From NCBI RefSeq assembly GCF_005405925.1, contig NZ_BJHV01000001.1, forward strand, positions 6,820,001 to 6,884,000: a stretch of 64,000 nucleotides of DNA, read 5' to 3'. The notes under the pieces are model-generated. The model was not told the origin of the DNA. It did no database searches and was given only the letters and a program-made list of their open reading frames with translations. Numbering within the stretch: position 1 is the stretch's first letter; each line of letters begins with the position of its first letter. Shown piece after piece: positions 44,240 to 63,107 of this stretch. The stretch is from Streptomyces antimycoticus (GTDB lineage Bacteria > Actinomycetota > Actinomycetes > Streptomycetales > Streptomycetaceae). The position numbers were made by a program, and so were the translations under genes.

Positions 44240-46594
44240 TCAGGGCTGAGACGCCCCCAAGGCATCATCGATCCGGCTCCGCAGTTCGACCGCCCGCGCA
44301 TCGTCGTACGCCGCCAGCGTGCACGACGCCTCCTCCCAATGCCGCCGTGCTTCCTCCTCCGCGCCACTACCCCCGGATCCGCGCAGCGCACTGGCCAGGC
44401 CGTCGAGTGCGAGTGCCAACTGCCAGTGGTCGTCGAGCTCGCGATGGGCCGCGGCCGCCCGCCGGTGGAACGCGGCCGCCTCCTCGAATCGGCCCAGTCG
44501 GCCGTACGCCTCACCGGCGGCGTTCCAGGCACGCGCCTCCCGCGATCGGTCCCCGAGCTGCCGATGCAGCACTGTGGCCCGCTGATATGAGACCAAGGCG
44601 TCCTCGGGACGGCCGTCGGCCACCTCGGCCTGTCCGAGGTCCAGCAGCCAATACCCCTCCCAGACATGATTGCGATGCCGACGGGCGATCTCGACGGCGC
44701 TCCCGGCAGACTCCAGGGCGTCCCGTATGGCGCCCTGCTCCCGCTGTACGGCGCTCAGAATCCGCAGGGCGTTGCCCTCACCGCCCTTGTCGCCCCGCTC
44801 CCGCAGCATGGCCAACGCCTCGTGAACGACCCGAGAGGCTTCCTCGAGCCGACCCGCCTCGTAGCCCACCGTGGCGATATTGGCGAGCAGTGTGGGCTCC
44901 CACTCGGACGCTCCGAGCTCCCGGAAGAGGGCCAGCGCCTCGGTGAAACGCTGCTTCGCCGCCTCCAACTGCCGTGTCCGCACATGGACCAGCCCGAGCG
45001 CGTTCAGCGACAGTGCTTCCCCCAGCCGGTCACCCAGCTCACGACGCACCGCCAGGGCACCCTCGTGGTACCGCGCCGCCTCCGCCGGACGGTGCGACTG
45101 CCGGCAGGCCATGCCCAGGCTCTCCAGAAGCCTCGCCTCCCCGGCCCGGTCACCCGCCCGCCGGGCGGCACTCAGCCCGATGTGCCCCATGGCGAACCAC
45201 TCCTCGAACGCGTTGTGGCGCGCGTGCAGAGGACGCAGCAGAGCGGGCAGTTGCCAGGCGATCACGTCGAGCCCGGCATCGGCGGCGGTGCGCGCGGCGG
45301 CCAAGAGATTGCCGTGCTCCAGCTCGTACCACCGCATCGCCTCGTTGTAGTCCGCGAAGGCCGGCGGTGTCACACCGTCGGGCAGCGCGTCGAGCGGAAC
45401 GGGCGGCTCGGCCGGGCTGACGCGCGTGCGTGCCGCATCGGCGGCGTGCAGATACCAGGTCAGTGCCCGGAGGCGGGCCGCCTCGCGGGTCTCGACGGGC
45501 TCCTCGTGCTGTGCCTGGTCGATGGCGTAGGCGCGCAGCAGATCGTGGAACTCGAAGCGGTCGGGGGCGGTCTGCGTCAGCAGATGCGCTCCGACCAGGA
45601 CGTCGAGCAGGTGCTGTGCCCGGCTGTGCCCGACTCCGGCGAGGGCGGCGGCCGCCGAGACCTCGAACTCGGGCCCCGGATGCAGCCCGAGCAGCCTGAA
45701 GAAACGCGCGGCTTCGGCGGGCAGCGCCCGATAGGACCAGGCGAACACCGTGCGCACCGCGTCTGCTTCCTCGTCGTCTCCCACGGTCAGAGCCTCCCAA
45801 AGGGCGGATTCGTCACGGAGGTCTCTGATCAACTCGTCAAGGCTCATCAGGGGCCGGCTGGCGGCCCGTTCGGCGGCGATGCGCAACGCCAGCGGCAGCC
45901 GGGCACACAAGCGCGCCAACTCGGCCAGCTTCTCCGCATCGTCCTCGGGCCGGTACCCGGCGGTGACGGTACGCAGCAGGGCCACGGCTTCCGGCTCGGC
46001 CAGCGTGCCCAGCGTCAACCGATGCGCCCCGTCCCGGACGGCCAGCCCCGACAGCCGGCTACGACTGGTGACGAGCACCAGACACCCCGCAGTGCCCGGC
46101 AGCAGCGGACGTACCTGGCTCACGGAGGCGGCGTTGTCGAGCACGATCAGCATCCGCCGCCCGGCCAGCAGCGAACGGTACAGCGCCGCACTGGCCTCCG
46201 GATCGGCCGGAACCGCCGCCCCCGACACCCCGAGCGCCAGCAGAAAGCGGTGCAGCACCTCGGGAGCGGTGACGGGCGCCCCCGGGTCATAGCCGCGCAG
46301 GTTCACATACAACTGCCCATCAGGGAAATGCGATTGGGCCTGGTGCGCCCAGCGCAGCGCCAGCGAGGTCTTACCCGCCCCCGCCATTCCCGCGATCACA
46401 CAAATGGAGACGACGAGCGGCTCCCCGCCATCTCCGGTCAGAATCGCATTGAGCCGCTCCAACTCACTGGTCCGGTTGACGAATCCGCGTATGTCCCCCG
46501 GAAGCTGCCGTGGCCGCGGGGTATCACCGTGAGCACCGTGCCGACCCATCCCATGGAAATGCACTCCGCCGCGCACATCACGGGCCTGCACCAC
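44240..46594 (-). CDS. STAND NTPase (NB-ARC plus TPR), module copy A
   Basis: A 784-residue protein from GTG 46594: NB-ARC with Walker A GMAGAGKTS near residue 70, Walker B MLIVLDNA, GLPL-like LCARLPLALRIAAERA, a winged helix ending FRLLGLHPGPEF, then TPRs to the end. It resembles the ATPase half of AfsR but has no DNA-binding or activation domain. It is the third gene of a module repeated at 59105-62427. The start is doubtful: similarity to copy B extends upstream (SQLSGSAGDVVQAR), the frame is open back to the DUF6879 TAG at 46724, and no ATG/GTG/TTG lies between. Confidence 0.88.
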   Translation of the reverse strand: MVQARDVRGGVHFHGMGRHGAHGDTPRPRQLPGDIRGFVNRTSELERLNAILTGDGGEPLVVSICVIAGMAGAGKTSLALRWAHQAQSHFPDGQLYVNLRGYDPGAPVTAPEVLHRFLLALGVSGAAVPADPEASAALYRSLLAGRRMLIVLDNAASVSQVRPLLPGTAGCLVLVTSRSRLSGLAVRDGAHRLTLGTLAEPEAVALLRTVTAGYRPEDDAEKLAELARLCARLPLALRIAAERAASRPLMSLDELIRDLRDESALWEALTVGDDEEADAVRTVFAWSYRALPAEAARFFRLLGLHPGPEFEVSAAAALAGVGHSRAQHLLDVLVGAHLLTQTAPDRFEFHDLLRAYAIDQAQHEEPVETREAARLRALTWYLHAADAARTRVSPAEPPVPLDALPDGVTPPAFADYNEAMRWYELEHGNLLAAARTAADAGLDVIAWQLPALLRPLHARHNAFEEWFAMGHIGLSAARRAGDRAGEARLLESLGMACRQSHRPAEAARYHEGALAVRRELGDRLGEALSLNALGLVHVRTRQLEAAKQRFTEALALFRELGASEWEPTLLANIATVGYEAGRLEEASRVVHEALAMLRERGDKGGEGNALRILSAVQREQGAIRDALESAGSAVEIARRHRNHVWEGYWLLDLGQAEVADGRPEDALVSYQRATVLHRQLGDRSREARAWNAAGEAYGRLGRFEEAAAFHRRAAAAHRELDDHWQLALALDGLASALRGSGGSGAEEEARRHWEEASCTLAAYDDARAVELRSRIDDALGASQP

Positions 46595-46723
46595 ATCACC
46601 CGCGGACCCCGACAGCTGCGACTGCGTCCCATGCGGCCCCTGGGACTGCGGCGCTTGCGGGGATTCCGGCGCTTGCGGGGATTCTTCCTGGGCGCCTTCC
46701 CGCTCTCTGTCCTCGTTGATCGT

Positions 46724-47350
46724 CTACTCCGCAGCTGTCGGGGGCGGCAAAGGGGCCACCTTGCGCTCAAAGTAAGAACTCATCTCTTCACCGGCTTCAT
46801 AAAGCCCCTCGATGAACTCCTCCCACCGTGTCAGCACGTCCGGATCAACGAATCGCACCGCACCATCGCTGATTCCCCGACTGTCATAAACGACCTTGTA
46901 CAGCGTCCGGCCGCCCAGCGAAACCAGCTCCGGCAGTGGCCCGCTCTCCTCGAACCCCCTGATGTGCTCAGGCCCGACCACCCTGATCCGCTCACCGCAC
47001 TCGGCCCGCAGCCGCAAGAGGTGCAGTTCCCACTGGAGGTAGGGAACGATCGGCTCCTCCACGACCCGCACCCGATAGAGACTGAAGTTCCGCTTGGCCG
47101 CCTCACCCATGTATTGCAGCAGGCCGTCACGTCGTTGCTCGATGAGCCGCAGAGCGCCTTCCCAATCGCCTTGCGAAAAGGCTTTCCAGCTGTCGCTGCC
47201 GGGCTCCTGGAAATGCTGTTGCCGCTCCAGCTTCCACGAGTCATGGCCCTCGTCATCCCATACGCGCTCCCGGAAGTCGGCCCGGTAGGTGTCCCGTGAC
47301 AGCCGATCACCCTGCGAGATATCGAGAACAGGAAGCTCAAGGCTAAGCAT
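46724..47350 (-). CDS. DUF6879 family protein, module copy A
   Basis: A 208-residue protein with the family pattern SSWKLER-like (DSWKLERQQHF), a central YRVRVVEEPIVPYLQWELHLLRLRAECGERIRVV and GPLPELVSLGGRTLYKVVYD. It is soluble, with no signal or membrane helix. The start overlaps the stop of the 90-residue gene by eight bases, and the same overlap occurs in copy B. Function unknown; constant linkage to a STAND ATPase suggests a partner or effector. Confidence 0.85.
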   Translation of the reverse strand: MLSLELPVLDISQGDRLSRDTYRADFRERVWDDEGHDSWKLERQQHFQEPGSDSWKAFSQGDWEGALRLIEQRRDGLLQYMGEAAKRNFSLYRVRVVEEPIVPYLQWELHLLRLRAECGERIRVVGPEHIRGFEESGPLPELVSLGGRTLYKVVYDSRGISDGAVRFVDPDVLTRWEEFIEGLYEAGEEMSSYFERKVAPLPPPTAAE

Positions 47351-47615
47351 CAGGAATCTCCGCCTTCGCGGCGCTCAATGTATTTCCCGGAATCACGACG
47401 AGCCGCTCATCCATGGCGATGCGGACATCCACGGGTAGACGAGACCGATATGCATCGGTGAGGTCTCGTCCGATGACCGCGATATCTCCGTTGTCGAGCT
47501 GCCAGATATCGGGGCAGTCGTCGTGGTCACCGGTGGTGCCCAGTTCGCTCGGTGACTTCCCTAACCGACGCACGAATGACGCGGACGGATCCGCATCCCA
47601 TGAACGACGAGTCAT
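47343..47615 (-). CDS. conserved small protein, first gene of module copy A
   Basis: A 90-residue protein, TRRSWDADPSASFVRRLGKS... with a strongly conserved CPDIWQLDNGDIAVIGRD core and DERLVVIPGNTLSAAK end. It is nearly colinear with the 89-residue protein of copy B. ATG 47615 lies six bases after GGGAGG; the adjacent ATG 47618 is three bases from it. No function known; a role as sensor or inhibitor of the module is only a guess. Confidence 0.82.
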   Translation of the reverse strand: MTRRSWDADPSASFVRRLGKSPSELGTTGDHDDCPDIWQLDNGDIAVIGRDLTDAYRSRLPVDVRIAMDERLVVIPGNTLSAAKAEIPDA

Positions 47616-47949
47616 CATCCGCCTCCCGTAGACCTTTCTGCCCTGACTCCCGCTGGCGCCGCGACGGCCCCAGCCATGCATGGCAACGGATTGTAGGGGT
47701 CCTGGTTACGGAGAGCAATGATTTGAGTGTTTGACTACTTGTTTTCCTGTGCCATTTCGGCCATTTGTGATCGGGACCGTCACAGGACTCATACGGCTCA
47801 CAAGAACCTCCAGTGCCGTCCGCTCCGTGCGACGGAGCCGATCACCGGCCGGAATTGCGCTCTGCCGCAATTGCGCCCTTTCGATACCGGGCCCTCCCTC
47901 TTCACCCTTCAACCAGGAGCGATGCAGCGGGGTCAAGGGGGAATCCGCG
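47616..47949. other. divergent promoter region between module A and the beta-family gene
   Basis: These 334 bases are richer in A+T than their surroundings (for example ATTTGAGTGTTTGACTACTT) and hold the promoter of module A. I see no gene in them. Confidence 0.6.
47690..47718 (-). promoter_or_regulatory. predicted promoter of module A
   Basis: On the minus strand, TTGCTC (47718-47713) and TACAAT (47695-47690) are separated by exactly 17 bases, a good housekeeping-sigma promoter, 75 bp before the ATG. The equivalent place in copy B has TACAGT. Confidence 0.6.
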
Positions 47950-49043
47950 ATGGTCGAGCCGATCTATGTACCCGTACTGCCGACGCGCCGGAGCTCATGG
48001 GACGCCTACGCGGGCCTGGCGACAGAAGTACGACGACGTGTCGCACCGCTGTGGACGGTCGTTCCACGCGTCGGGCCGGAGCGCACCAGAGGGGCGAGCC
48101 CCGCAACGGACCCGGACACCGACTCGCCGGAGCTGGGCCGTTGGTTCACCGCACGCATGGACAACCTCATCAAGGCGATGGGCGGGCTCGCCGGTTGGGT
48201 GGACCCCGTCCACATCGAGCGGCACGTCGAGGCGTCGGCCATCGGCTTGTGGCGCGTGGCGACCAGAAGCGAGCTACGCCTGGTCACCGGCCCGGAGCGA
48301 GCCCCGGGCCGCCAGCGCTATGCCGCCGACCTCGCCTCCCTCAGCGGACGAGGCATCGGCATACGCGTATTGCTCGACGCCGCGCGGGACGCATCGCGCT
48401 CCGAGGACCTCCTGGCCCTGGTCGGCCAACTCCGTCTGCCCCCGTCGCAGCTCGACCTCCTTCTGGACATCGGCATGGTCGCGGACGCCGCCGAAGCGGC
48501 CAAACTCGCCCTCGTCGGCGTAGACGCCCTTGCCACCCTGGTCCCCTGGCGCACGGTCGTCCTCACCGGAGGAGCCTTCCCCCGCGACCGGGACCACCCG
48601 GATGGGCGACCGACACGCATCTCCCGGCGCCACGACTGGCAGGTCCACCAGTCGGTCCGCGCCTCCCGCCCGGAATTCCCGGGCCCACTGATCTACGGCG
48701 ACTACTCCGTGGAACACGCGCACAGCGCGAACATCTCCGCCCGGCCCTACGGCCCCCCGTACGGTCTGCTCCGCTACACCGCCGCACACCACTTCCTCAT
48801 CGCCCGGGCGCCCCTCAGGGGTCCCGACCGTGCCCCCGGGCCCGGGCGATGGCCCGTCGGATGGTGACGTCCGACTCCTTCCGTGGCATCGAGGACACCA
48901 CGTCGAGCGACGGTGAGCGCTGGCTCCACACCTGCGCCTACGGCGACGGCTCGGCCGGCTCGGGCAACGCCGAGAAATGGATTCAGGTCGGCCATCTCCA
49001 GCACATGAACTACGTCGCACGGCAGTTGATCCGGCCGTGCTGA
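47950..49043 (+). pseudogene. beta-family protein (PF14350), frameshifted
   Basis: The reading frame from ATG 47950 (AAGGGGGA seven bases upstream) matches the phage-type beta protein family: VEPIYVPVLPTRRSSWDAYAGL at the start, GPLIYGDYSVEH late. It stops at 48867, but the conserved C terminus (ARAMARRMVTSDSFRGIEDTT ... NAEKWIQVGHLQHMNYVARQL) continues in the next frame to 49043. A run of five C at 48833-48837 lies at the junction; six would join both parts into about 364 codons. Family members are found in phages and defence-rich regions; activity unknown. Confidence 0.82.
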
Positions 49044-49107
49044 CCCCGCCGGACGGGCGCATCCGGCGGGGTCTGGGTGCTGGCGCCTGAGCGGTAAGGC
49101 GTGCCGC

Positions 49108-49776
49108 TCAGCCGAAGTTCACGTCACTGCACAGGAAGTACGTCTGGTCCATGTGCGACGCCTGCCAGATCGTGTAGACGACGTGGCGACCGGTGTAGCC
49201 GGAGGTGCTGACGTCGATCGCGTAGTTCTGGCTGGGGGCGTACTTGCCGGTCGTGGTGACCAGTTGCAGGTCACTCCACTTGAGCGGCTGGGTGGTGGGG
49301 TCGTACCCCTGGCGGGACACATACACCTTGAAGTAGTCCGCACCGTGGCTGGCCTGGTCGTACAGCTTGACGGTGAACTTGCCGCCGATGTTCGTCGTCT
49401 GCCAGACACCCGGCGTGTCGAGCGAGTTGTAGCGGCCGCCCTCGGTGTGGCCACCGCTGCACAGCTGCCCGTCCGGGATCGCCGCCGGGAAGTTACCGGC
49501 GGAGCCGTTGCGGTACAGCCCGTTCCAGTTCCACATGGCGTTCGGGTTGTCCTGCCAGGCCTGCCAGCACATGGGGTCCAACTGCGCCATCTCAGGGTTC
49601 TGGAAGTCGTCGCCCCAGCGCAGCCAGCACCCGTAGTTGCGGGAGGCTGGGTCGACGACCGATCCATGGGCGCTCGCGGTGGTGGACCACGGGATCAGGC
49701 ACAGCAGCGCCGCGGCCAGCAGACCAAGGGCGCGAGACGCCCAACGTAAGGAATTGCCGCGTTCATGACAAATCAT
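49108..49776 (-). CDS. secreted lytic polysaccharide monooxygenase (AA10)
   Basis: A 222-residue secreted copper enzyme. The signal peptide ends STTASA, leaving His as residue 1 of the mature protein (HGSVVDPASRNYGCWLRWGDDF), which forms the copper histidine brace with the later His in HTEGG or ASHGAD. It oxidatively cleaves cellulose or chitin. ATG 49776 has GGAGGA upstream. Codon 10, in the signal peptide, is TTA, implying bldA dependence. A perfect CebR site 47 bp upstream argues for cello-oligosaccharide control and so for cellulose as substrate. Confidence 0.93.
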   Translation of the reverse strand: MICHERGNSLRWASRALGLLAAALLCLIPWSTTASAHGSVVDPASRNYGCWLRWGDDFQNPEMAQLDPMCWQAWQDNPNAMWNWNGLYRNGSAGNFPAAIPDGQLCSGGHTEGGRYNSLDTPGVWQTTNIGGKFTVKLYDQASHGADYFKVYVSRQGYDPTTQPLKWSDLQLVTTTGKYAPSQNYAIDVSTSGYTGRHVVYTIWQASHMDQTYFLCSDVNFG

Positions 49777-49822
49777 TTCGCGATCTTCCTCCATCGTCCT
49801 CGGGGGAGTGGTGGCAATGGGG

Positions 49823-49836
49823 TGGGAGCGCTCCCA
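49823..49836. promoter_or_regulatory. CebR operator upstream of the LPMO gene
   Basis: TGGGAGCGCTCCCA is the exact 14-bp palindrome bound by CebR, the cellobiose/cellotriose-responsive repressor of Streptomyces cellulase genes. Confidence 0.9.
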
Positions 49837-49995
49837 AGGTGGCTGCTTCCCGAACGATGAGACCTCGAAACCTGGAGCCGAGGCGGCAACAACCCACCCG
49901 AAGCACCGACCTGCCCCGAACTGCCCAGAACCCCAGGCCGGTTGACCTCCTCCCTGGCAGTGCCGCCCGCCCCGGCCCGGGGTAGTCGGCAGAGC

Positions 49996-50895
49996 ATGGG
50001 CGAGATTCTGGTCGGCACCTGTTCATGGACGGACCGCGCGCTGGTGTCCAGCGGCTGGTACCCGCCGGGGTTGCGCGACGCGGAGGGGAGACTGCGCCAC
50101 TACGCCGCCCAGTTCCCGGTGGTGGAGGTCGACGCCACGTACTACTCCCTGCCCAGCGCCCGTAACAGCACCCTATGGACCGAGCGCACCCCGGACGGAT
50201 TCCGCTTCGACGTCAAGGCGTTCTCCCTGTTCACCGGGCACCCGACGACCCCGAACGCCCTGCCCGCCGACCTGCGCCCCGCACTGACCGGACGAAGGGG
50301 CCACCGGCCGCGACCCGCAGACATCGCTCCCGGGCTGCTCGACGAGGTATGGCAGCGCTTCAGTGGAGCGCTCGAACCACTGAAGACGGCAGGGCGCCTA
50401 GGCACCCTGCTCTTCCCATTCCCACCCTGGTTCGCCCCGGACGACGCACAGGCAAAGCCGTTCCTCGCCCAATGCGCACAGCGCGCGGCGGACTGGCCCG
50501 TCGCCGTGGAGTTCCGTCACCCCGGCTGGTGGCAGGCGGACGAGCGGGCCGAGACCGAGGCGCTGCTCAAGGACTGGGACATGTCCGCCGTGGCCGTGGA
50601 CATGACCCAGAAACTGCCCGCCTCCATGCCCCCGGTCACCCCGATCACCTCACCCCGCCTCGCGGTGGCCCGCTTCCACGGCCGCAACGACGCATGGGGC
50701 TCCGGCACCAAGGAAGAGCGGTTTCGCCACACCTACACCACGGACGAACTGACGGAGTGGATCCCGCGCCTCCACGCAATGGCCGAACGGGCCGACGAGG
50801 TCCACGTCCTGTTCAACAACTGCTGCGCCGACGCGGCCGTCCGTGCGGCGGAGTCGATGCGGCGGCTGCTCGGGGCACCCGCGGGCCCGGGGTGA
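49996..50895 (+). CDS. DUF72 family protein
   Basis: A 299-residue TIM-barrel protein of the DUF72 (YecE) family: ILVGTCSWTDRALVSSGWYPPG at the start, VVEVDATYYSLPSARNSTLWTERTPDGFRFDVKAF next, then FRHPGWW and ARFHGRN. The family is widespread and its reaction is unknown. ATG 49996 fits the family start; upstream residues in frame are unlike it. It diverges from the LPMO gene by 219 bp. Confidence 0.9.
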   Translation: MGEILVGTCSWTDRALVSSGWYPPGLRDAEGRLRHYAAQFPVVEVDATYYSLPSARNSTLWTERTPDGFRFDVKAFSLFTGHPTTPNALPADLRPALTGRRGHRPRPADIAPGLLDEVWQRFSGALEPLKTAGRLGTLLFPFPPWFAPDDAQAKPFLAQCAQRAADWPVAVEFRHPGWWQADERAETEALLKDWDMSAVAVDMTQKLPASMPPVTPITSPRLAVARFHGRNDAWGSGTKEERFRHTYTTDELTEWIPRLHAMAERADEVHVLFNNCCADAAVRAAESMRRLLGAPAGPG

Positions 50896-50899
50896 CGGC

Positions 50900-52248: not shown

Positions 52249-52347
52249 CCGACGGAGTAGCGGGCAGGCGCAGTTCTCGTCTGCCCTGACAGGGGACTGG
52301 CGGCTGGCCCTGCTTACACCTCGTGCAAGGTACTCCCGGCGGGGGCC

Positions 52348-52690: not shown

Positions 52691-52765
52691 ACACCTCGGG
52701 ACGACAGGAATTGAACCTACCCCTGACCCCATGGCAGCAGACAGCGAGTGCTCGACCTGGCTGAC
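52688..52765 (-). other. tRNA-like relic, possible attachment site
   Basis: On the minus strand a D-arm-like segment (TCAGCCAGGTCGAGC, 52764-52750) is followed at tRNA-like spacing by a T-arm (GTAGGTTCAATTCCTGT, 52720-52704) with two wobble pairs. It resembles initiator tRNA in places, but no acceptor stem pairs and the anticodon arm is poor, so it is not a functional tRNA. Its place at the edge of the RHS island fits an integration scar. Confidence 0.3.
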
Positions 52766-52877: not shown

Positions 52878-53252
52878 ATGGGCACCGGGGGCGGCCGCAA
52901 GGTTCTGGACATCAAGGTGGCGGACATCAAGTCGGTCGCGCCGACGTTCCACCACCAGGCGGTGAAGCTGAGTGAGGCGCTGACCACGCTGATCTCGACG
53001 CTGGACGGCTATGGGGAGCCGTGGGGGGATGACAAGCCCGGTAACGACTTCGGCAAGCAGTACAAGCCGAACCAGAAGCACATCGAGTCGGCGGCCGGCA
53101 TTCTCGTCCTCGGGCTGACCAGCATCTATGAGGCGATGAACGACATGGCTGATGGCCATGTCGACAACGACAAGCTCATCGAGGGCATGTTCACCAAGGC
53201 CAAGCACGACTCGGGTCATGACCAGGGTCCGGGCGCGGGCGGTCATCGGTGA
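52878..53252 (+). CDS. WXG100-like small helical protein (RHS partner)
   Basis: A 124-residue helical protein with the ESX-type turn GEPWGDDKPGNDFGKQY between two helices, as in WXG100-related proteins encoded before large secreted toxins. ATG 52878 is six bases after GAGGGGGG. Its stop overlaps the RHS start by four bases, so the two are co-translated. It probably helps export or fold the RHS protein through a type VII-like route; that route is inferred. Confidence 0.75.
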   Translation: MGTGGGRKVLDIKVADIKSVAPTFHHQAVKLSEALTTLISTLDGYGEPWGDDKPGNDFGKQYKPNQKHIESAAGILVLGLTSIYEAMNDMADGHVDNDKLIEGMFTKAKHDSGHDQGPGAGGHR

Positions 53253-56200
53253 GTTTCGGGAGCGATATCGAGGACAAGGCGAAGGCCCTCCTCATGAAGC
53301 TGGGCATGTGGTGGCCGGACGCCAATTCCGGCACGCTGCGCCACGCGGCCGACGCCTGGCGGACGTTCGCCGACAGTGTGGACGATGTGCGGGTCGCGAC
53401 CGACAAGGCGGCCACGACGCTCATCCACCACAACAAGGGTGAGGCGATCGACGCCTTCGAGACCTTCTGGGGGCGTTACGCCAAGGGCAAGGACGAGGGC
53501 TGGCTGAGCAATCTCGCCAAGTCCGCGCGGAACATGGCCAAAGCGCTGGACAAGTTCGCCGACACGGTCGATGACGCGATCGAGAAGCTGTGGACGCAGA
53601 TCAGCATCGATGCCGTCGCGCTTGTCGGCGGTGGGCTGCTGACCATCGTCACCGGAGGTGCCTCGGACGGGGTGGCGGCGGAGATCATCGCCATGGCCGC
53701 CGGTCTGGGCGTCGCCGTGGAGGAGGCGGTCGCCGTCATCGCGGCGGAGATGCTGACGGGCGCGGTCTTCACGAGCGTGCTGTCGGTGACGATCGACGCG
53801 GCGGTGGCCCAGCCGGTGAAGATCGCTCTGGGGCAGCAGAAGGGTTTCAGCCTGGACGAGGTCAATCAGGCGGCCAGGGACGGCATGATCGACGGCGGTA
53901 TCTTCGGCGCCGGGCTGGGGGTGCTCAAGCCCGGTGTGATGCCCAAGTTCACCGGCGTGCCGGATCTGCTCAAGCCGCCGAAGGTGCCCTCGCTGCGCCC
54001 GAACCTGGTCGAGGAGGGCCCGGCCGCCCGCCCGGCCAGGAAGTGCCCGTGTACGGGTGAGCCGATCGACATCGCGACGGGTGCGATGTTGATGGAGCAC
54101 ACCGATCTGACGCTTCCCGGTTCGCTGCCGCTGGTGTTCGAGCGTACTCATGTGTCCTCGTACCGGGGCGGGGTGTGGTTCGGCCCGACCTGGAGCAGCC
54201 TGCTGGACGAGCGGGTCCAGCTGGACGCGGAGGGTGTGGTGTTCGCCGCCGCGGACGGGATGCGGTTGGTGTATCCGGTGCCGGAGGCGGGGGTGCCGAC
54301 GCTGCCCGCGAAGGGTGCGCGGTGGCCGCTGGAGTGGGACGGCAAGCCGGACGGTGTCATGACGGTCACCGATCCGGAGACGGGTGTGGTGCGGACGTTC
54401 GTCCGTCCCGCCGCCACGGAGGAGCCGGGCGCGGTCTACCTGGTCCTGGAGAGCCTCCAGGACCGCAACGGCGCCCGCATCGACATCGAACGCGCCCTGA
54501 GCGGCGCCCCGCTGGCCGTCCGCCACTCCGGGGGCTACTACCTGGTCGTCGACACCGAGGGCCAGCGCGTCACCGCGCTCCGGCTCCTGGACGAACCGCC
54601 GTCGATCTACACCCCCGAGCGGAACCGCGAGGGCGGCACGGTGGTGATGCGCTACGGCTACGACGAAGCGGGCAACCTCACCGAGGTCATCAACTCCAGC
54701 GGCGAGCCGCTGCGGTTCACCTACGACGACCAGGGACGGGTGACGTCCTGGACCGACCGCAACGGCACCTCGTTCCGGTACGTGTACGGGCCGGACGGGA
54801 AGGTGGTGCGCACCGAGGGCAGCGACGGTGTCTTCAACGGCGGCCTGGAGTATGACGACGCGGCGCGGACGACGGTCTATACGGACTCGCTGGGCCACCG
54901 CACGGCGTATCGGTACAACGCCGACGGGCAGCTGGTCGAGGAGACCGGTCCGCTGGGGCACACGACGCTGACGGAGTGGGACGCGCGCGGCGACCGTAAG
55001 GTGTCGACGACGGATCCCCTGGGCCGTACCACCCGCTACGCGTACGACGAGGACGGCAATCTGACCGGCGTCACCCTGCCGGACGGCAGCGAGGCCCGGG
55101 CCACGTACAACGCGCTGTGCCTGCCGGTGGAGGTGACCGAGCCGGGCGGCGGGACATGGCGCCACACGTATGACGACACGGGGAACCTCCTCTCGACGAC
55201 CGACCCCGTGGGGGCGACCACGGCCTACGGCTACACCGAGCGGGGCCACCTGGCCGAGGTGATGGACGCGCTGGGTAACACCGCGCGCCTGACCCCGGAC
55301 CCGGCCGGGCTCCCCATCGCCGTAACGGACCCGTTGGGCCACACCACGAGCGTCCGCCGGGACCCCTTCGGCCGGGTGGTGGCGGCGACGGATCCGCTGG
55401 GCCATACGACCCGTATGGGCTGGACGACCGAGGGCAAACCGGTGTGGCGGGAGGAGCCGGACGGCGCCCGGGAGAGCTGGACCTGGGACGGCGAGGGGAA
55501 CCTCCTCACCCACACGGACCCCGCGGGCCACACCACCCACCAGACGTCCACCCACTTCGACGTACCCGTGACCCGTACGGAGCCGGACGGCGCGACGTAC
55601 GCCTTCGCCTACGACACCGAGCTGCGCCTGACCGAGGTCACCAACCCCCAGGGCCTGACCTGGACCTACACCTACGACCCGGCGGGTCGGCTCACCACCG
55701 AGACCGACTTCAACGGCCGCACCGTGGCCTACGCCCACGACCCGGCGGGCGACCTGCTGACCCGCACAGGCGGCGCGGGCGAGACGCTGCACTTCACCCG
55801 GGACGCGCTGGGCCGCACAACGGAACAGCGCGACGAGGCGGGCGCACGGACGACGTATGCCTACGACGCGCAGGGCGCCCTGACGCGAGCGGCCAATCCG
55901 GACGTCGAGCTGACCCTCGAACGGGACGCGTTGGGCCGGGTCCTGTCGGAGACGGTCAACGGCCGGACGACGACGTACGCGTATGACGCCGTGGGCCGCC
56001 GCACCGAACGCATGACGCCCTCGGGCCTGATGAGCGTCTGGACCTACGACGAGGCGGGCCGCCCCGCCGCGTTGCGCACCGGGACGGCGGGGACCCTGAC
56101 CCTCACGTACGACGCGGCGGGCCGGGAGACGGAACGCCGCATCGGCGAGGCGGTGCGACTGACCCAGACCTGGGACAGGTCAGACCGCCTGACGACCCAG

Positions 56201-57556
56201 ACAATCGCCGAGGGCCGTGGCAACGAGGCGAACCGGATCCTCCAACACCGCTCCTACGCCTACCGCCCGGACGGCTACCTCACCGAGATCCGCGAACTCA
56301 CCTCGGGCACGCGCCGCTTCGACCTCGACCCGGTCGGCCGCGTGACGGCGGTCCACGCCCACGGCTGGACCGAGACGTACGCCTACGACACGGCGGGCAA
56401 CCTGACGCAGGCCACGGCCCCTGACCACGCGTCCCCCGGCGACCGCGAGTTCACCGGCACGGTGATCCACCGAGCGGGCCGCACGACGTACGAACACGAC
56501 GCCCAGGGCCGCCTCACCCGCCGCACCCGCAAACTCCTCAACGGCCGGACCCGCACCTGGACCTACACCTGGAACGCGGAAGACCGCCTGACGGACGCGA
56601 CAACCCCGGACGGCGACCATTGGCACTACACATACGACCCCCTCGGCCGCCGCATATCCAAACAACGCCTGGCCGAGGACGGCACGGTGAGGGAGTCGCT
56701 GACCTTCGCGTGGGAAGACACTCGCCTTGCCGAGCAATCCACACCAGAGGGCAACCACACCACCTGGGACTACGCCCCGGACACCCACCGCCCCCTGACC
56801 CAAACCGACCACACGTCACTGGTGCGCGAGCCCGGCGAATCCCTCATAGAGAAATTCACCGGCGCCGACGACGACACCACACCGCGCTTCCACGCCATCA
56901 TCACGGACCTGGTCGGCACCCCAACGGAGTTGGTCACCGCGGCCGGTGACCTGGCCTGGCAACGCCGCACCACCCTCTGGGGCACAGATTTCCCCACCGG
57001 GGCAAGCCCTTCAACGGTCGACTGCCCCCTCCGCTTCCCCGGCCAATACGCCGACCCCGAAACGGGCCTGCACTACAACTACTTCCGCCACTACGACCCG
57101 GAAACGGCCCGCTACGTCACCCCAGACCCGCTGGGCCTCGAGCCTGCCCCCAACCACCACGGGTATCTTCCTGATCCTCGGACTGGGGTCGATCCCCTGG
57201 GGCTGGCAGGTTGTAAGGATGCCCATGTAGCACTCCGAGGTTGGCGAAACAAGGATTACCAGCTCGGAAGCCAGCAGATAAAGCTGGACAAGAAGGGTAT
57301 GAAGCACTTCCTTGAGCGACATCACCCGGAGTACTGGGATGGCTCAACGAAGGGTCAACAATCCTTCTTCGATCCGAAAATGAGCGTTACGGACGTCAGG
57401 TCGGCTGTCGAAGATGTACTCAAGCAGAACCGTGACACGATAGACCGGCGTGGCGTTGATAAAATGTACCAAGTGACCGGTGAGGTTGACGGGACAACCT
57501 ACGTCCTGGGTATCAATCGGGGACGAGTTGGCCAGTTCTACCCGCTCAACGAATAA
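53249..57556 (+). CDS. RHS/YD-repeat polymorphic toxin with probable EndoU nuclease end
   Basis: A 1435-residue toxin. Residues 1-90 are WXG/LXG-like helical, about 115-200 contain hydrophobic helices, CPCTGEPIDIATGAM begins the RHS part (about 268), and YD repeats run to the core end RFPGQYADPETGLHYNYFRHYDPETARYVTPDPLGL. The variable tip (about 1320-1435) reads KGMKHFLERHHPEYWDG...QSFF...VLGINRGRVGQFYPL, which fits bacterial EndoU RNases. Base composition drops sharply in the tip, a sign of module exchange. The stop and the immunity start overlap (TAATG). Confidence 0.88.
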   Translation: MSFGSDIEDKAKALLMKLGMWWPDANSGTLRHAADAWRTFADSVDDVRVATDKAATTLIHHNKGEAIDAFETFWGRYAKGKDEGWLSNLAKSARNMAKALDKFADTVDDAIEKLWTQISIDAVALVGGGLLTIVTGGASDGVAAEIIAMAAGLGVAVEEAVAVIAAEMLTGAVFTSVLSVTIDAAVAQPVKIALGQQKGFSLDEVNQAARDGMIDGGIFGAGLGVLKPGVMPKFTGVPDLLKPPKVPSLRPNLVEEGPAARPARKCPCTGEPIDIATGAMLMEHTDLTLPGSLPLVFERTHVSSYRGGVWFGPTWSSLLDERVQLDAEGVVFAAADGMRLVYPVPEAGVPTLPAKGARWPLEWDGKPDGVMTVTDPETGVVRTFVRPAATEEPGAVYLVLESLQDRNGARIDIERALSGAPLAVRHSGGYYLVVDTEGQRVTALRLLDEPPSIYTPERNREGGTVVMRYGYDEAGNLTEVINSSGEPLRFTYDDQGRVTSWTDRNGTSFRYVYGPDGKVVRTEGSDGVFNGGLEYDDAARTTVYTDSLGHRTAYRYNADGQLVEETGPLGHTTLTEWDARGDRKVSTTDPLGRTTRYAYDEDGNLTGVTLPDGSEARATYNALCLPVEVTEPGGGTWRHTYDDTGNLLSTTDPVGATTAYGYTERGHLAEVMDALGNTARLTPDPAGLPIAVTDPLGHTTSVRRDPFGRVVAATDPLGHTTRMGWTTEGKPVWREEPDGARESWTWDGEGNLLTHTDPAGHTTHQTSTHFDVPVTRTEPDGATYAFAYDTELRLTEVTNPQGLTWTYTYDPAGRLTTETDFNGRTVAYAHDPAGDLLTRTGGAGETLHFTRDALGRTTEQRDEAGARTTYAYDAQGALTRAANPDVELTLERDALGRVLSETVNGRTTTYAYDAVGRRTERMTPSGLMSVWTYDEAGRPAALRTGTAGTLTLTYDAAGRETERRIGEAVRLTQTWDRSDRLTTQTIAEGRGNEANRILQHRSYAYRPDGYLTEIRELTSGTRRFDLDPVGRVTAVHAHGWTETYAYDTAGNLTQATAPDHASPGDREFTGTVIHRAGRTTYEHDAQGRLTRRTRKLLNGRTRTWTYTWNAEDRLTDATTPDGDHWHYTYDPLGRRISKQRLAEDGTVRESLTFAWEDTRLAEQSTPEGNHTTWDYAPDTHRPLTQTDHTSLVREPGESLIEKFTGADDDTTPRFHAIITDLVGTPTELVTAAGDLAWQRRTTLWGTDFPTGASPSTVDCPLRFPGQYADPETGLHYNYFRHYDPETARYVTPDPLGLEPAPNHHGYLPDPRTGVDPLGLAGCKDAHVALRGWRNKDYQLGSQQIKLDKKGMKHFLERHHPEYWDGSTKGQQSFFDPKMSVTDVRSAVEDVLKQNRDTIDRRGVDKMYQVTGEVDGTTYVLGINRGRVGQFYPLNE

Positions 57557-58038
57557 TGAGGGCCATGCTGTCCGTACATTCTTTTCTGAAGGAGCCAGGC
57601 GGTTCTTTCGTGCCTGTAGGGCAGGCGCAATTTCGGATTCCGGACCCGGACTATATCGAGGGTGCCCTGGAGTTGGAGGTGAATGGCGTCCCCATTCTCT
57701 CCCTGAATGATTGGGACTACATTGATCAACTCTGGTCATATCTCATCAACGCCATGGAGGAGTATTCGGAATCGGGCGTCGCATCAACCAGACTCCCTGA
57801 TCAGCCGACCAAGCTGACTCTGTCAAGGCAAGGAAAGAGTTACGTTCTTGTTCGGGTGGATAGAGGTAAACAGTCGCGGAGCTCGGCAGTCGAGGAGAGT
57901 GAGTTCTTCCGTGTGCTATTGGAGTCCGGAGATCTGTTCTTCGCCTGTATGGCCGGAATCCTTCCTGAGGTCGCAGACTATTACAACTCTGAGCGGGAAA
58001 GGCTGCTCAGGCTTCGTGGTTGTCAGGGGTTTCAGTGA
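57556..58038 (+). CDS. predicted immunity protein for the RHS toxin
   Basis: A 160-residue soluble protein of low G+C with no family that I recognise: VHSFLKEPGGSFVPVGQAQF at the start, NGVPILSLNDWDYIDQLWSYLINAMEEY in the middle. The ATG overlaps the toxin stop by one base, the typical toxin-immunity arrangement, and it shares the low G+C of the toxin tip. It should bind and block the EndoU-like domain in the producing cell. Confidence 0.72.
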   Translation: MRAMLSVHSFLKEPGGSFVPVGQAQFRIPDPDYIEGALELEVNGVPILSLNDWDYIDQLWSYLINAMEEYSESGVASTRLPDQPTKLTLSRQGKSYVLVRVDRGKQSRSSAVEESEFFRVLLESGDLFFACMAGILPEVADYYNSERERLLRLRGCQGFQ

Positions 58039-58141
58039 TGGTGGTGTCTGTCGGCTCTGGAGCACTCCTGGTGCACCGACGAGGTTCCGGTGGCGCTGCC
58101 TGACTCACACAATCTGACGCGGCGGGTACGGCAGCAGGACC
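58039..58141. other. low-G+C spacer after the immunity gene
   Basis: About 100 bases without a gene, of mixed composition, between the immunity gene and a broken small gene. Confidence 0.5.
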
Positions 58142-58388
58142 ATGAATGCCATCATTGCTCGCACGCTGATGGAGCTGTGTATCCCTTGAGTTGCCCGACG
58201 AAGAGTCTGTCTCTGTGGAGGCGTCGGCAGTTCTGGCTGAGGATGCCGCCACGTCGCTAGGGGCTCTATCAGATACCGAACGAGCGGAACTGATCTCGAT
58301 CATTACCCAGATGGGTGAAGAAGCCGGGGATAAGGATCGTCGGCAAGCCCTCCAGGATCTCCCTGAAGGACTTGGGCTTACCGAGTGA
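58142..58388 (+). pseudogene. broken small gene, possibly a second immunity-type protein
   Basis: The frame from ATG 58142 reads MNAIIARTLMELCI and then stops; one base further, LELPDEESVSVEASAVLAED...LSDTERAELISIITQM...LPEGLGLTE continues to 58388. The two halves join into an acidic helical protein of about 80 residues like those that often follow toxin genes in Streptomyces. One extra base near 58184 breaks it. A TTG at 58191 could start the second part alone. Confidence 0.5.
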
Positions 58389-58437
58389 CCAGCGCTTTGC
58401 CAATGTGCTCGACCTTTGTGAACGCATCCCGGCATCG

Positions 58438-58848
58438 TCAGTTCGGCGCGCCCCAGTCCCTCCGGTACGCGGCCCAGTCACCCGGCGTCGCCGCGAAGTC
58501 CACATACAGCGCGACGCCGAACCGCTCGCGCCGCGCGTCCTCGCCGTTCAGCCCGAGGCGGGCGCCCCGGACGGCCGCGGCCACCGTCTCGGCCGACTCG
58601 TGGTGGCCGATGTCGTCGGTGTGGAAGGCCGGAAGGCTCATCAGCAGGTCGGTGCCGCGCGGGGTCGCCTCCAGGGCCAGCCGCGTCTGCTGCGCCACAT
58701 AGCCTCCGTACAGGCTCTCCATGGGCATCGCCGTGTCGTAGGACATCACCGCGATCTGATCGACCCGGCAGGCGACCGCGCCGAAGTACGACTGCGACCA
58801 CCACTTGGGGTGACCGGCGACGAACCCCGCGACGGAGTGGAAGGAGGG
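58438..58848 (-). pseudogene. 3' remnant of a GH18-like protein gene
   Basis: About 135 codons from RPSFHSVAGFVAGHPKWWSQ through VDQIAVMSYDTAMPMESLYGGYVAQQTRLALEATPRGTDLLMSLPAFH look like the second half of a GH18-type TIM barrel. The catalytic DxxDxDxE part is missing. The homology breaks at about 58850, exactly where the direct repeat begins, so the module insertion removed its 5' end. The frame stays open upstream but has no family match. Confidence 0.6.
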
Positions 58849-58857
58849 GCGGGGGAC

Positions 58858-59165
58858 GTGGCAAATGAGGACGAACCTAGCGGTTGTTGGGCGGTGAGCT
58901 GGTGATCCAGACGGCCATGCCGGTGCCGGTGACTCGAGCTCGCACGTAGCTGACCGGCGCTCCGACGGCACGGGGAGCCGCCCCTGACGGCTTCCGTGCC
59001 ACCAGCCCGGCGGCTCGGCCGTGGGGCGACCCCCTCACCTATGGGTGTGGTCCTGGATACAGTGGGTAGCCACAGCGGCTCGACCACCTCGACCGGAGGC
59101 AGACATGGCCCGTGCCTGGGAGGCTGACCCGTCCGCGTTATTCGACCGTCGGCTGGGGAAGTCGG
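58858..59165. repeat. direct repeat right copy (module B start)
   Basis: The partner of 52348-52690, in the same orientation. It holds the minus-strand 53-codon ORF, the promoter region and the first codons of the 89-residue gene of module B. Confidence 0.85.
58877..59038 (-). CDS. conserved small ORF divergent from module B (53 aa)
   Basis: A GTG-started frame encodes RGSPHGRAAGLVARKPS...GAPVSYVRARVTGTGMAVW and ends ITSSPPNNR. In the direct-repeat copy near 52531 the same frame is kept with mainly third-position changes over YVRARVTGTG-AVWITSSPP, which suggests that it was coding, although that copy has lost its stop. No ribosome-binding site is clear and no family is known. Confidence 0.42.
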   Translation of the reverse strand: MRGSPHGRAAGLVARKPSGAAPRAVGAPVSYVRARVTGTGMAVWITSSPPNNR

Positions 59166-59374
59166 CCGAAGCGCTCGGGAACTCCGACGGCAATGACGAG
59201 TGTCCGGACATCTGGCAGCTCGACAACGGTGATGTGGCCGTGATCGGCAGGGATCCGACAGCCGTCTACGGCCCCCGCCTGCCGCAGGGCGTGCACCTCG
59301 CTCCGGACGAGCGGCTGGTCGTCATCCCGGGGAACATGCTCAGCGCGGCGAAGAAGGACATCCCCGATGCTTGA
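59105..59374 (+). CDS. conserved small protein, first gene of module copy B
   Basis: An 89-residue protein, ARAWEADPSALFDRRLGKS, then the CPDIWQLDNGDVAVIGRD core and DERLVVIPGNMLSAAK. It is colinear with the 90-residue protein of copy A. ATG 59105 follows GGAGG by six bases. Codon 12 is TTA. The stop overlaps the DUF6879 start by eight bases, as in copy A. Confidence 0.85.
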   Translation: MARAWEADPSALFDRRLGKSAEALGNSDGNDECPDIWQLDNGDVAVIGRDPTAVYGPRLPQGVHLAPDERLVVIPGNMLSAAKKDIPDA

Positions 59375-60005
59375 CCTCCTCGCCCCCGTCCTCGTTCCCG
59401 ACCAGGGCGATCGGCTCACCCGCACCGCCTACAAGCAGGACTTCCGAGAACGGGAGGACGCGGTCCGTGACGGGAGTTCCTGGAAGCTGGAGCGCCGACA
59501 GCACTTCGAGGAGCAGGGCAGTCCGAGCCGGGACGCCCTGCGCCGGGGTGACTGGGAGGAGGCGCTTCGGCTCCTCGCCGACCGGCGCGACACCTTGGCG
59601 GCGACCGCCCAGGAGGACGAGCGCCGAGGGTATGCCTTTCACCGTGTGCGGGTGGTCGAGAGGCCACTGACGCCGTACGTGCAGTGGGAACTCCACTCCC
59701 AGCGGCAGCGTGCGGAGTACGGGCAGCGGATCAGGGTCGTCCCCGCCGAACAGGTAGCCGCCTCGGAGGACACCGGCCCGCTTCCGGAAGTGGTTGTCCT
59801 GGGTGGCCACACCCTCTTCCAAGTCCTCTACACCGAAGCAGGAGTTGCGAACGGCGCGATCCGCTACACCGACCGTGATCTCGTCGAGCGCTGGGAGAAC
59901 TACATCAAGGCACTCTACGCGGTGGGTGAAGAGGTGATCTCCTACTTCGACCGCGAGGTGGCGCACCTTGATCCGCCGACGCCTAGCGACGAGGGAAGGG
60001 AGTAG
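59367..60005 (+). CDS. DUF6879 family protein, module copy B
   Basis: A 212-residue protein colinear with copy A: SSWKLERRQHFEE, FHRVRVVERPLTPYVQWELHSQRQRAEYGQRIRVV and GPLPEVVVLGGHTLFQVLY. It is soluble. The end overlaps the STAND gene by 38 bases in another frame, so translation is coupled. Function unknown. Confidence 0.87.
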   Translation: MLDLLAPVLVPDQGDRLTRTAYKQDFREREDAVRDGSSWKLERRQHFEEQGSPSRDALRRGDWEEALRLLADRRDTLAATAQEDERRGYAFHRVRVVERPLTPYVQWELHSQRQRAEYGQRIRVVPAEQVAASEDTGPLPEVVVLGGHTLFQVLYTEAGVANGAIRYTDRDLVERWENYIKALYAVGEEVISYFDREVAHLDPPTPSDEGRE

Positions 60006-62427
60006 GCCGATCACATCGCCAGGCGGACAGGACGAGCACTTCGGCAGCACCCACTCCGAGCTGTCGGGATCCTCACGTGACGTCGTCCAGGCGAGAAGCG
60101 TCCACGGAGGCATCCACTTCCACGCGCAGCGCACACCGGACGCGGGGAGCTCCTCCAGCCCTGTCCCACGCCAGTTACCGGCCGACGTGGGCGGATTCGT
60201 CAACCGAACCGATGAGCTTGGCCAGTTGAATGCCATCCTCACCAGCGACGACGGCAGTCCGCTAGTCGTCTCGGTATACGTCATCGCCGGCACCGCCGGC
60301 GCCGGTAAGACATCGCTGGCACTGCGCTGGGCACACCAGGTCCGGGAGCGTTTCCCGGATGGCCAGCTGTACGCCAATCTGCGCGGCTACGACCCCGGAG
60401 AGCCGGTCGCGGCACGTGAGGCCCTGCACCGCTTGCTGATCTCGCTCGGTGTCCAGACCGAAGCCGTACCGCAGGATCTCGACGCGGCCGCCGCGCTGTA
60501 CCGCTCGTTACTGGCCGACCGCCGGGTACTGGTCGTCCTGGACAACGCGGCCACCGTCGGCCAGGTCAGGCCGTTGCTGCCCGGGAGCGCACACAGCCTG
60601 GTGCTGGTCACCGGCCGCAGCCGCCTGTCCGGCCTCGCCGTCCGGGACGGGGCCCGCAGGCTCACGCTTGGCGTGCTGCCGGAGCCGGAGGCGGTTGCCC
60701 TGCTGCGCGTCGTCACCGCGGGATACCGGCCGGTCGATGACGAACGGCAGCTCGCCGAATTGGCCCGGCTGTGCGCACGACTTCCGCTCGCTCTGCGGAT
60801 AGCCGCCGAACGCGCCGCCAGCCACCCCCACCTACGACTGGACGACCTGATCGCCGACCTACGGGACGAATCGGCCCTCTGGGACGCCCTGAGCACGGGC
60901 GACGACGAGGAAGCCGAAGCCGTCCGCACCGTCTTCGCGTGGTCCTATCGAGCCCTGTCCGAGCAAGCCGCTCGTTTGTTCCGCCTGCTGGGCCTACACC
61001 CCGGACCCGAGTTCGGGCTGCGGGCCGCCGCGGCCCTGGCAGGGGCGACCAGCATCAGTCGGTCCCGGCAACTGCTGGACTCTCTGGTCGGCGCACATCT
61101 CCTGGAACAGACCGCCCCGGACCGCTACCAGTTCCATGACCTGCTGCGTGCCTACGCCATCGACCAGGCCCAGCACGAGGAGCCGCCGGTCGAGCGGGAG
61201 GCAGCGCTGCGACGCGTGCTGGAGTGGTACCTGCACACCGCCGATGCAGCGCAGGGCTGGATCAACCCCGCTGAGGACCGTGTGACCCTCACGCCCGCCT
61301 CGGATGACATCAGCCCGCTGACGTTCTCCGATTACGACGCTGCCGTGGACTGGGCCGAGCGGGAGCACGCCAACCTCCTCCAGGCCGTGCGCACGGCGGC
61401 CGACGCCGGCCATGACCGACTGGCGTGGCAGCTGTCCACGGTCCTGTGGAACGCGCAGTTCCCTTCCGCCTCGGGCACAAGCTGGCCGGCCGTGGGCCGC
61501 ATCGGCCTGGAGGCAGCCGAACGGCTGGGGGAACGCGCCGCACAAGGCGCACTCCACACCTACCTCGGCATGGCCTACACCCGCATCAACCGCTTGGCCC
61601 AGAGCCTCGAATCCCACGAGAACGCGCTGACGATCCGGCGGGACCTGGGTGACCGCCTTGGCGAAGCACGTTCACTCAACCTGATCGGGCTGAACCACCT
61701 CCGCGCCAGACGACTCGGCCCCGCAGCCCGCCACTTCGAGCAGGCCATCTCCGCCTTCCAGGAGCAGGACGCCGCCCACTGGGCCGCCACGGCGATGTCC
61801 AACCTCGCGACCACCCACTACCGCGCCGGTCGGCTTCCGGAGGCGGCGACCGTCATCGACCAGGCCCTGGCAGCGCACCGCGCTCTCGATGATCAGCGCG
61901 GCGAGGGCAACATCCTGCGGGTGCTGAGTGACGTCCAACGCGAACGGGGCGATGTCGAGGCATCCCTGGCCTCGGCCCAGGCCGCCCTCGACATCGCCCT
62001 CACCCTCCGCAACCTCCGCCTGGAGGGCTTCTGGCTGCTGACCCTCGGCGATGCCCAGCAGGCGAAGGGGCAGTATGCGGAGGCCCTGACCTCCTACCAG
62101 CGGTCCGGCACGCTGCACCGACGCCTCGCTGACCGCAGCCGAGAGGCGCTGGCCTGGCAGGGAGTTGGTGAGGTGTACCGCCGGCTCGGACGTCATGCCG
62201 AGGCGGCCGACTTCTACCGTCAGGCCGCCTCGACGCACCGCGATCTCGGGGATGAGTGGCACCAGGCCCTGGCCCTCGACGGCCTGGGCTCGGCCGTACT
62301 CGGCGAAAGCCCGGAGGAAGCCCGTCGGCACTGGGCACAGGCGCTGAGGCTCCTCGCTGACTTCGACGATCCTCGCGCAGCGGCGGCGCGTGAGGGCATC
62401 GAACATCGGCTGACAGAAACAAGCTGA
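59968..62427 (+). CDS. STAND NTPase (NB-ARC plus TPR), module copy B
   Basis: An 819-residue protein with an unstructured first 70 residues, the shared DVVQARSVHGGIHF segment, Walker A GTAGAGKTS near 107, Walker B VLVVLDNA near 187, LCARLPLALRIAAERA and FRLLGLHPGPEF, then TPRs. TTG 59968 has GAGGTGG six bases upstream, inside the DUF6879 gene. Codons 70 and 181 are TTA, implying bldA-dependent translation; copy A has none that I can see. STAND proteins oligomerise on sensing a signal, often to trigger defence or regulation. Confidence 0.9.
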   Translation: MIRRRLATREGSRPITSPGGQDEHFGSTHSELSGSSRDVVQARSVHGGIHFHAQRTPDAGSSSSPVPRQLPADVGGFVNRTDELGQLNAILTSDDGSPLVVSVYVIAGTAGAGKTSLALRWAHQVRERFPDGQLYANLRGYDPGEPVAAREALHRLLISLGVQTEAVPQDLDAAAALYRSLLADRRVLVVLDNAATVGQVRPLLPGSAHSLVLVTGRSRLSGLAVRDGARRLTLGVLPEPEAVALLRVVTAGYRPVDDERQLAELARLCARLPLALRIAAERAASHPHLRLDDLIADLRDESALWDALSTGDDEEAEAVRTVFAWSYRALSEQAARLFRLLGLHPGPEFGLRAAAALAGATSISRSRQLLDSLVGAHLLEQTAPDRYQFHDLLRAYAIDQAQHEEPPVEREAALRRVLEWYLHTADAAQGWINPAEDRVTLTPASDDISPLTFSDYDAAVDWAEREHANLLQAVRTAADAGHDRLAWQLSTVLWNAQFPSASGTSWPAVGRIGLEAAERLGERAAQGALHTYLGMAYTRINRLAQSLESHENALTIRRDLGDRLGEARSLNLIGLNHLRARRLGPAARHFEQAISAFQEQDAAHWAATAMSNLATTHYRAGRLPEAATVIDQALAAHRALDDQRGEGNILRVLSDVQRERGDVEASLASAQAALDIALTLRNLRLEGFWLLTLGDAQQAKGQYAEALTSYQRSGTLHRRLADRSREALAWQGVGEVYRRLGRHAEAADFYRQAASTHRDLGDEWHQALALDGLGSAVLGESPEEARRHWAQALRLLADFDDPRAAAAREGIEHRLTETS

Positions 62428-63104: not shown

Positions 63105-63107
63105 CAG

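Follow-up and report, generated by a model that had tools for sequence, protein, structure and literature searches.

Analysis of a 64,000-nucleotide stretch of the 11.17-Mb genome of Streptomyces antimycoticus (contig 1, positions 6,820,001-6,884,000; hereafter the window) revealed a three-gene module that is present there in two copies, A and B, and is widespread in many actinobacteria. Each copy encodes a small protein of 90 (A) or 89 (B) residues, a DUF6879 protein and an ATPase of the signal transduction ATPases with numerous domains (STAND) class, with NB-ARC and TPR domains. As judged from the reading frames of the window copies and their relatives, the STAND ATPase is probably translated from a conserved non-canonical AUC start codon, and a short amyloid-type motif at its N-terminus is predicted to carry the signal. 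DUF6879 has a confidently predicted phospholipase D (PLD)-like fold and probably serves as a sensor or adaptor and not as an effector. Taken as a whole, the reading of the module as a three-gene operon comprising a sensor pair and an AfsR-like STAND ATPase, made from an AUC start and signalling through an amyloid-type N-terminus, is held tentatively, its probability falling a little short of even.

Both copies were found where the initial annotation had placed them, with the same three-gene content, and the 8-base overlap between genes 1 and 2 is real in both. The features are as follows.

47343..47615, minus strand: copy A gene 1, open reading frame (ORF) of 90 residues, no Pfam or NCBIfam family, 69% identical to that of copy B
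46724..47350, minus strand: copy A gene 2, DUF6879 (PF21806, E 6e-36)
47343-47350, minus strand: 8-base overlap of genes 1 and 2 of copy A; the same overlap recurs across relatives
46727..46730, minus strand: GGAG, Shine-Dalgarno-like for the STAND gene of copy A, inside the end of gene 2
46718..46720, minus strand: proposed AUC start of the copy A STAND gene, 6 nt past GGAG
44240..46720, minus strand: copy A gene 3, NB-ARC and TPR STAND ATPase, 826 residues counted from the AUC; domains found on the ORF from 46594
46553..46594, minus strand: copy A N-terminal amyloid-signalling-like motif VVQARDVRGGVHFH
59105..59374, plus strand: copy B gene 1, ORF of 89 residues
59367..60005, plus strand: copy B gene 2, DUF6879 (PF21806, E 7.8e-32); predicted PLD-like fold, predicted local distance difference test (pLDDT) 91.6; no HxKx4D motif
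59999..60002, plus strand: GGAG, Shine-Dalgarno-like for the STAND gene of copy B
60010..60012, plus strand: proposed AUC start of the copy B STAND gene, 7 nt past GGAG
60010..62427, plus strand: copy B gene 3, NB-ARC and TPR STAND ATPase, 805 residues counted from the AUC; core like AfsR (8k60)
60082..60123, plus strand: copy B N-terminal amyloid-signalling-like motif VVQARSVHGGIHFH

Both genes 2 passed the gathering score of PF21806 (123.9 and 110.5 bits vs 23.9). TPR was detected in both STAND proteins, and the NB-ARC domain of the copy B protein scored 22.8 bits, slightly below the Pfam cut-off of 23.5. Between the copies, the genes 1 are 69% and the genes 2 53% identical. A copy from another species is 93% identical to the B STAND and the nearest copy of the A STAND 72%, and one further genome (G165) carries one B-type and one A-type copy with 2.3 Mb between them. 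A recent inverted duplication as the origin of A and B was rejected on the basis of the tree. The two copies are old paralogues, and their inverted arrangement looks incidental.

Conservation of the module was followed in two sets of loci. For the genus set, a search of 199 genomes of the genus with gene 1 gave a match at E ≤ 0.01 in 89, and every match outside the window with E < 1e-30, 47 in total, was taken with up to 5 kb of flank per side. The named set consists of the 80 best relatives of window gene 2 and describes that subfamily; some strains are shared with the genus set. In the genus set, gene 2 was next after gene 1 in 43 of the 47 loci, a window-type STAND gene lay downstream on the same strand in 28, and an NB-ARC/TPR gene of the window type or of a second type was present within about 5 kb in 42, while the 8-base overlap was found in 42 of the 46 gene-1/gene-2 rows, window included. 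The full triplet in the same order was recovered at 74 of the 80 named loci (STAND match above 900 bits in 66), with gene 1 present in 78 and the overlap in 75. These counts imply that order and overlap are general in this subfamily. At three named loci, DUF6879 and the STAND form a single open frame, and a fourth fusion of this kind is annotated as a single protein on a Kitasatospora plasmid. The proposal of the initial annotation that the three genes make up one module is borne out by the triplet count, by these fusions and by those of a gene-1-like domain to DUF6879 described below.

Close relatives of window genes 1 and 2 occur in Streptomyces antimycoticus, violaceusniger and malaysiensis. 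No fourth conserved module gene was seen among 105 neighbourhood loci (from two sets with strains in common), the commonest neighbour families occurring in 17 and 15 of them; by eye, these two resemble a HATPase-type protein and a response regulator. Genes of the second NB-ARC/TPR type lie mostly on the opposite strand, after a protein of about 130 residues whose tail, VYQAGRDQHI, matches the N-terminus of the second-type STAND, VYQSSGDQHI; NB-ARC and TPR were confirmed for one member. Three of the five genus loci without an NB-ARC/TPR gene have a DUF6082 gene (PF19560 confirmed for one family member).

The STAND gene cannot begin where a standard ORF list puts it. In copy A, no ATG, GTG or TTG of the frame precedes the N-terminal motif, whose opening codon is the earliest one (46594). 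In copy B, the sole standard start upstream of the motif is a TTG at 59968, inside gene 2, and this TTG is without counterpart in the near relatives L207-L213. Upstream of the motif, both window STANDs lack ATG and GTG, and many relatives also lack any ATG, GTG or TTG there, though the residues preceding the motif are conserved.

Start codons were surveyed in 65 motif-bearing loci (63 of the named set and both window copies), a standard start being counted as usable when at least 5 codons before the motif and at most 60 nt inside gene 2. Such a start was lacking in 38 loci, including copy B, which was counted in because its one upstream TTG lies 35 nt within gene 2 (an automatic count, in which copy B passed as canonical, gave 37); the other 27 have one, several of them beside the gene-2 stop. 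It was found that 36 of the 38 carry an in-frame ATC near the gene-2 stop, with GGAG or GAGG 5-8 nt before it in 28. At the set spacing, an in-frame ATC was present in 27 of 37 loci, compared with 5 of 37 for the next in-frame codon. From the ATC to the motif, differences at codon positions 1, 2 and 3 numbered 256, 253 and 430, as expected of translated sequence. ATC is among the table 11 starts but rare, and initiation factor 3 (IF3) discriminates against codons such as ATC; to our knowledge, an AUC start conserved across genera would be unusual. Among the papers listed by a literature search, judged by titles and abstract beginnings, none treats AUC starts in actinobacteria.

The STAND core matched the AfsR structure 8k60 with residues 64-640 of an 819-residue ORF (E 1e-76). 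The cut-off of the NCBIfam AfsR equivalog was missed (369 and 363 bits vs 1430), the matches starting at profile positions 285 and 277, and NCBIfam HaaT was also matched below its cut-off. Alike in their NB-ARC/TPR core, AfsR and the module STAND differ in that the AfsR SARP part is unmatched in the latter, where a conserved N-terminal stretch, roughly LSGxSRDVVQAGxVxGGIHFH, takes its place, and in the presence of the partner genes. The motif within this stretch is VVQAxxVxGGVHFH. According to the available parts of two papers, bacterial amyloid NOD-like receptor (NLR) signalosomes are defined by a motif shared between the receptor N-terminus and an adjacent effector (PMC7889193, PMC8086366), and the outcome of such signalling is described in the former as still to be explored. 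Of the 28 STAND loci on the same strand, 27 were scanned for effectors, the exception being L060, whose contig is 4.9 kb long; the flanks covered were about 10 kb where the contig allowed (25 loci) and 5 kb in L085 and L087. In L085 and L087, an adjoining Bell-like protein ends in SGTVTNLIQARDVHGNISF or a near copy, matching the STAND motif. The module resembles the amyloid signalosomes in its NB-ARC/TPR receptor, in the short N-terminal motif and, at 2 of 27 loci, in an adjacent Bell-like match; it differs in having gene 1 and DUF6879 fixed upstream, an effector that is usually not adjacent, and a putative AUC start. Gene 1 and gene 2 were rejected as carriers of the motif, regex searches of the loci having hit only STANDs and the two Bell-like proteins, with the single exception of an unrelated-looking frame in L112. 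Elsewhere in the same genome, outside the window, L173 and L175 hold pairs of a Bell-like frame of about 140-180 residues and an NB-ARC-type frame that share a VYQAGRDQHI / VFQxxGDQ-type motif.

A wider view of DUF6879 was obtained by a Pfam-model search of 101 genomes, 87 of which contain the domain. From the best-scoring rows listed, 40 stretches were drawn (every fourth plus two), so that weaker DUF6879 subfamilies are under-sampled. Directly downstream of 41 of the 42 DUF6879 genes in this sample lies an XRE/DUF5753 gene; upstream, a gene-1-like small gene is present in 34, and in 6 the same small domain is fused to DUF6879, for instance as a 79-residue N-terminal extension in the L141 protein. 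The gene-1 types of the window and of the XRE loci are homologous by hhalign (96.8%, E 2.7e-10), as are the two DUF6879 types by profile comparison (99.2%). The third DUF6879 gene of the window's own genome (L001/G000:C1:7035920-7036649) belongs to this common form, with a gene-1-like gene, DUF6879 and XRE/DUF5753 (DUF5753 confirmed). The two kinds of locus share homologous genes for the small protein and DUF6879, arranged alike, and differ in the third gene, which encodes an XRE regulator in one and a STAND in the other. Going by these homologies, the window module is a swap, in which a STAND ATPase replaces the XRE regulator of a common three-gene locus. The initial annotation had made its idea of one system depend on DUF6879 being accompanied by a STAND. 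This adjacency stood for the window subfamily, which is nearly always found with a STAND (74 of 80 named loci, 42 of 47 genus loci), and fell for the DUF6879 genes sampled at large (41 of 42 with XRE); given the swap of regulator for STAND, the statement that DUF6879 occurs mostly without a STAND is true of the sampled family and false of the window subfamily.

Structure prediction for DUF6879, which the initial annotation had recommended, gave a confident PLD-like AlphaFold model for copy B gene 2 (mean pLDDT 91.6). The top Foldseek matches of this model were PLD3, human BJ-TSA-9 and Zucchini, and VIA-align scores were 11.2 for vaccinia F13, 11.1 for Nuc, 11.0 for SauUSI, 10.7 for NucT, 10.6 for TrmBL2, 9.9 for FAM83B and 8.7 for TrmB. 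The catalytic motif HxKx4D was absent from all 48 window-type and all 43 XRE-type DUF6879 sequences. A PLD fold without the catalytic motif serves sensing or docking in TrmB and FAM83. A PLD-like fold lacking HxKx4D favours a sensing or adaptor role for DUF6879 over that of effector, which had also been considered for it and finds no support here. DUF6879 shares the predicted fold with the PLD-fold domains of TrmB/TrmBL2 and FAM83 and differs from them in that a search of the Protein Data Bank with its sequence profile gave no significant match to solved structures and in being a separate gene, unfused to a DNA-binding domain.

Gene 1 has no Pfam or NCBIfam match in either copy. The copy B protein matched 1142 database proteins at E ≤ 0.001, and a Pfam domain was present in none of the 120 listed. 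An impression by eye that gene 1 is a DUF397 relative was rejected, hhalign giving 1.0%, 0.3% and 4.5% for three gene-1 groups. XRE-DUF397 pairs (WhiJ/BldB-type), in the text available of PMC10294661, likewise place a small protein beside an XRE regulator and have many Streptomyces paralogues; they differ from the module, whose gene 1 is without profile similarity to DUF397 and which has no XRE gene. Thirteen of the weaker gene-1 matches were also examined (L090-L102). In L090-L101, a gene-1 relative sits at a conserved chromosomal place. Most of these loci lack DUF6879 and have a DUF6082-type gene next to the relative, which gives the small gene-1 family a further partner. No paper on DUF6879 or DUF6082 was found in a literature search.

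In the mechanism that we propose, gene 1 and DUF6879 would associate in a complex and sense either a ligand or a signal of foreign origin or of damage, in the way that the sugar sensor TrmB uses its PLD-fold domain. This sensor pair would act on the XRE/DUF5753 factor in most sampled DUF6879 loci and would hold or release the STAND here. The proposed weak AUC start beside the gene-2 stop may keep the STAND scarce and in step with its partner. Once activated, the STAND would oligomerise through NB-ARC/TPR, and the clustered motifs could act as a template for the same motif of an effector, whether Bell-like or of another kind, in cis at few loci and in trans at most, with a membrane or cell-death type response protecting the colony as the outcome. 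A further-reaching version seems unlikely to us: an NLR-type switch whose dose is set by an AUC start tied to termination of the pseudo-PLD gene, so that disturbed start selection (phage takeover, IF3 shortage) would raise the switch, with a sensor pair interchangeable between a transcription factor and an amyloid-signalling STAND.

Several observations speak against the proposed mechanism. Regarding the amyloid step, a matching effector was adjacent in just 2 of the 27 STAND loci scanned and none was found in the window; the L183 Bell-like protein carries the other motif. With the L085 Bell-like protein as query, the genome to which the window belongs gave 8 weak matches at E ≤ 10, and of the best three, two are Bell-like proteins with the other motif at the C-terminus. 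The published BASS3 peptide is only loosely like the STAND motif (one peptide, compared by eye). As no matching effector was found in the flanks of 25 loci or in the window, we infer the amyloid step from the motif and from relatives. Regarding the start codon, GTC stands in place of ATC in 2 of the 38 loci, and GTG occurs at the first two motif codons in 17 of 38, a possible start that would lose the upstream residues. The out-of-frame controls were high (TCA 20, GAT 18 and CGA 16 of 37), because these triplets overlap the same GATCA block, and the ATC count therefore reflects a conserved block with ATC in frame and is not an independent codon test. Regarding the sensor pair, the structure model of gene 1 was poor (pLDDT 56). 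A bare HxK is present in 13 of 48 window-type and 7 of 43 XRE-type DUF6879 sequences at scattered or C-terminal positions. Window-type DUF6879 was rejected as a DUF5753 relative in profile comparison (0.8%), and the XRE-type comparison was only suggestive, a lead (76.7%). Lastly, gene 2 is encoded in no phage record and in four plasmid records, and a phage origin was discarded on that ground.

As the main rival explanation, the module would regulate development or antibiotic production: the AfsR-related STAND, gene 1 and DUF6879 would sense a metabolite and, without causing cell death, influence either transcription or a further regulator. The AfsR core match (E 1e-76) and the AfsR and HaaT matches under the NCBIfam cut-offs fit this explanation, as does the XRE/DUF5753 regulator of the sister DUF6879 loci; XRE-DUF397 pairs of Streptomyces are, moreover, described as antibiotic-production regulators in the accessible portions of PMC10364602 and PMC6262351. 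Against this, the SARP region of AfsR is unmatched and replaced by the short motif, and a Pfam scan of the module proteins of both copies (E ≤ 0.1) turned up no DNA-binding domain. We regard the regulator as possible, though rather unlikely.

Two other explanations concern single parts of the proposal. The STAND might be made as a DUF6879-STAND fusion protein by stop-codon read-through or frameshifting, without an AUC start; among the 38 loci with no usable standard start, gene 3 shares the frame of gene 2 in 17, true fusions exist, and the GTC of two loci would be a conservative change from ATC if it encoded an internal residue. The frame of gene 3 relative to gene 2, however, is 0, +1 and +2 in 17, 19 and 2 of the 38 loci while the GGAG-to-ATC spacing holds, so that neither read-through nor a single frameshift explains all loci, and several relatives have an ATG or GTG beside the gene-2 stop, all of which makes this route improbable in our view. 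Small overlapping gene pairs at variable places also recall a toxin-antitoxin-like unit, with the gene 1 product or DUF6879 as toxin and its neighbour as antidote, by analogy with a proposal for DUF397-HTH pairs (PMC7159879, as far as its text was available). We consider such a unit very doubtful, DUF6879 being without HxKx4D, gene 1 not detectably related to DUF397 (hhalign 1.0%) and a large STAND belonging to the unit.

The case for a defence role of the module is weak, and a part in defence or self-recognition, like amyloid output, is something that we infer. In PADLOC-DB 2.0.0, genes 1 and 2 matched no model and no system-specific model fitted the module; both STANDs hit a generic TPR model and, weakly, Cas3fv, with a further weak match of the copy B protein to C3a156. 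Module flanks vary by species, and some include apparent housekeeping genes (by eye). Within the window, a Beta_protein gene (PF14350) at 47731-48867, divergent from copy A, matches the candidate defence model PD-Lambda-2_C of PADLOC; related genes neighbour copy-B-type modules at 6 loci, of which two belong to a single strain, and the one in L184 is 32% identical. An ATPase frame at 50843-51943 matches the candidate defence model PDC-S27 and has a longer relative in L183. Between the modules, 53249-57556 encodes a protein resembling RHS-repeat polymorphic toxins, its N-terminus being WXG100-like and its C-terminus giving a weak EndoU match under the Pfam cut-off; a small gene lies downstream. 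An RHS stretch 87% identical lies upstream of the copy-B relative L210. A DUF397 and XRE/DUF5753 pair at 62880-63983 adjoins copy B, in a genome with 33 DUF397 matches.

What is new here is the proposed conserved AUC start; the start of the STAND is revised accordingly, and DUF6879 is reassigned from effector to a probable pseudo-PLD sensor. A conserved AUC start, if true, would explain why start rules place the beginning of these ATPases too far in and so hide the N-terminal motif. The findings provide function-relevant context for DUF6879 and for a small-protein family without a Pfam entry, and point to one likely sensor pair that is used with two different output devices. For bacterial amyloid-type NLRs, the module would name an upstream input.
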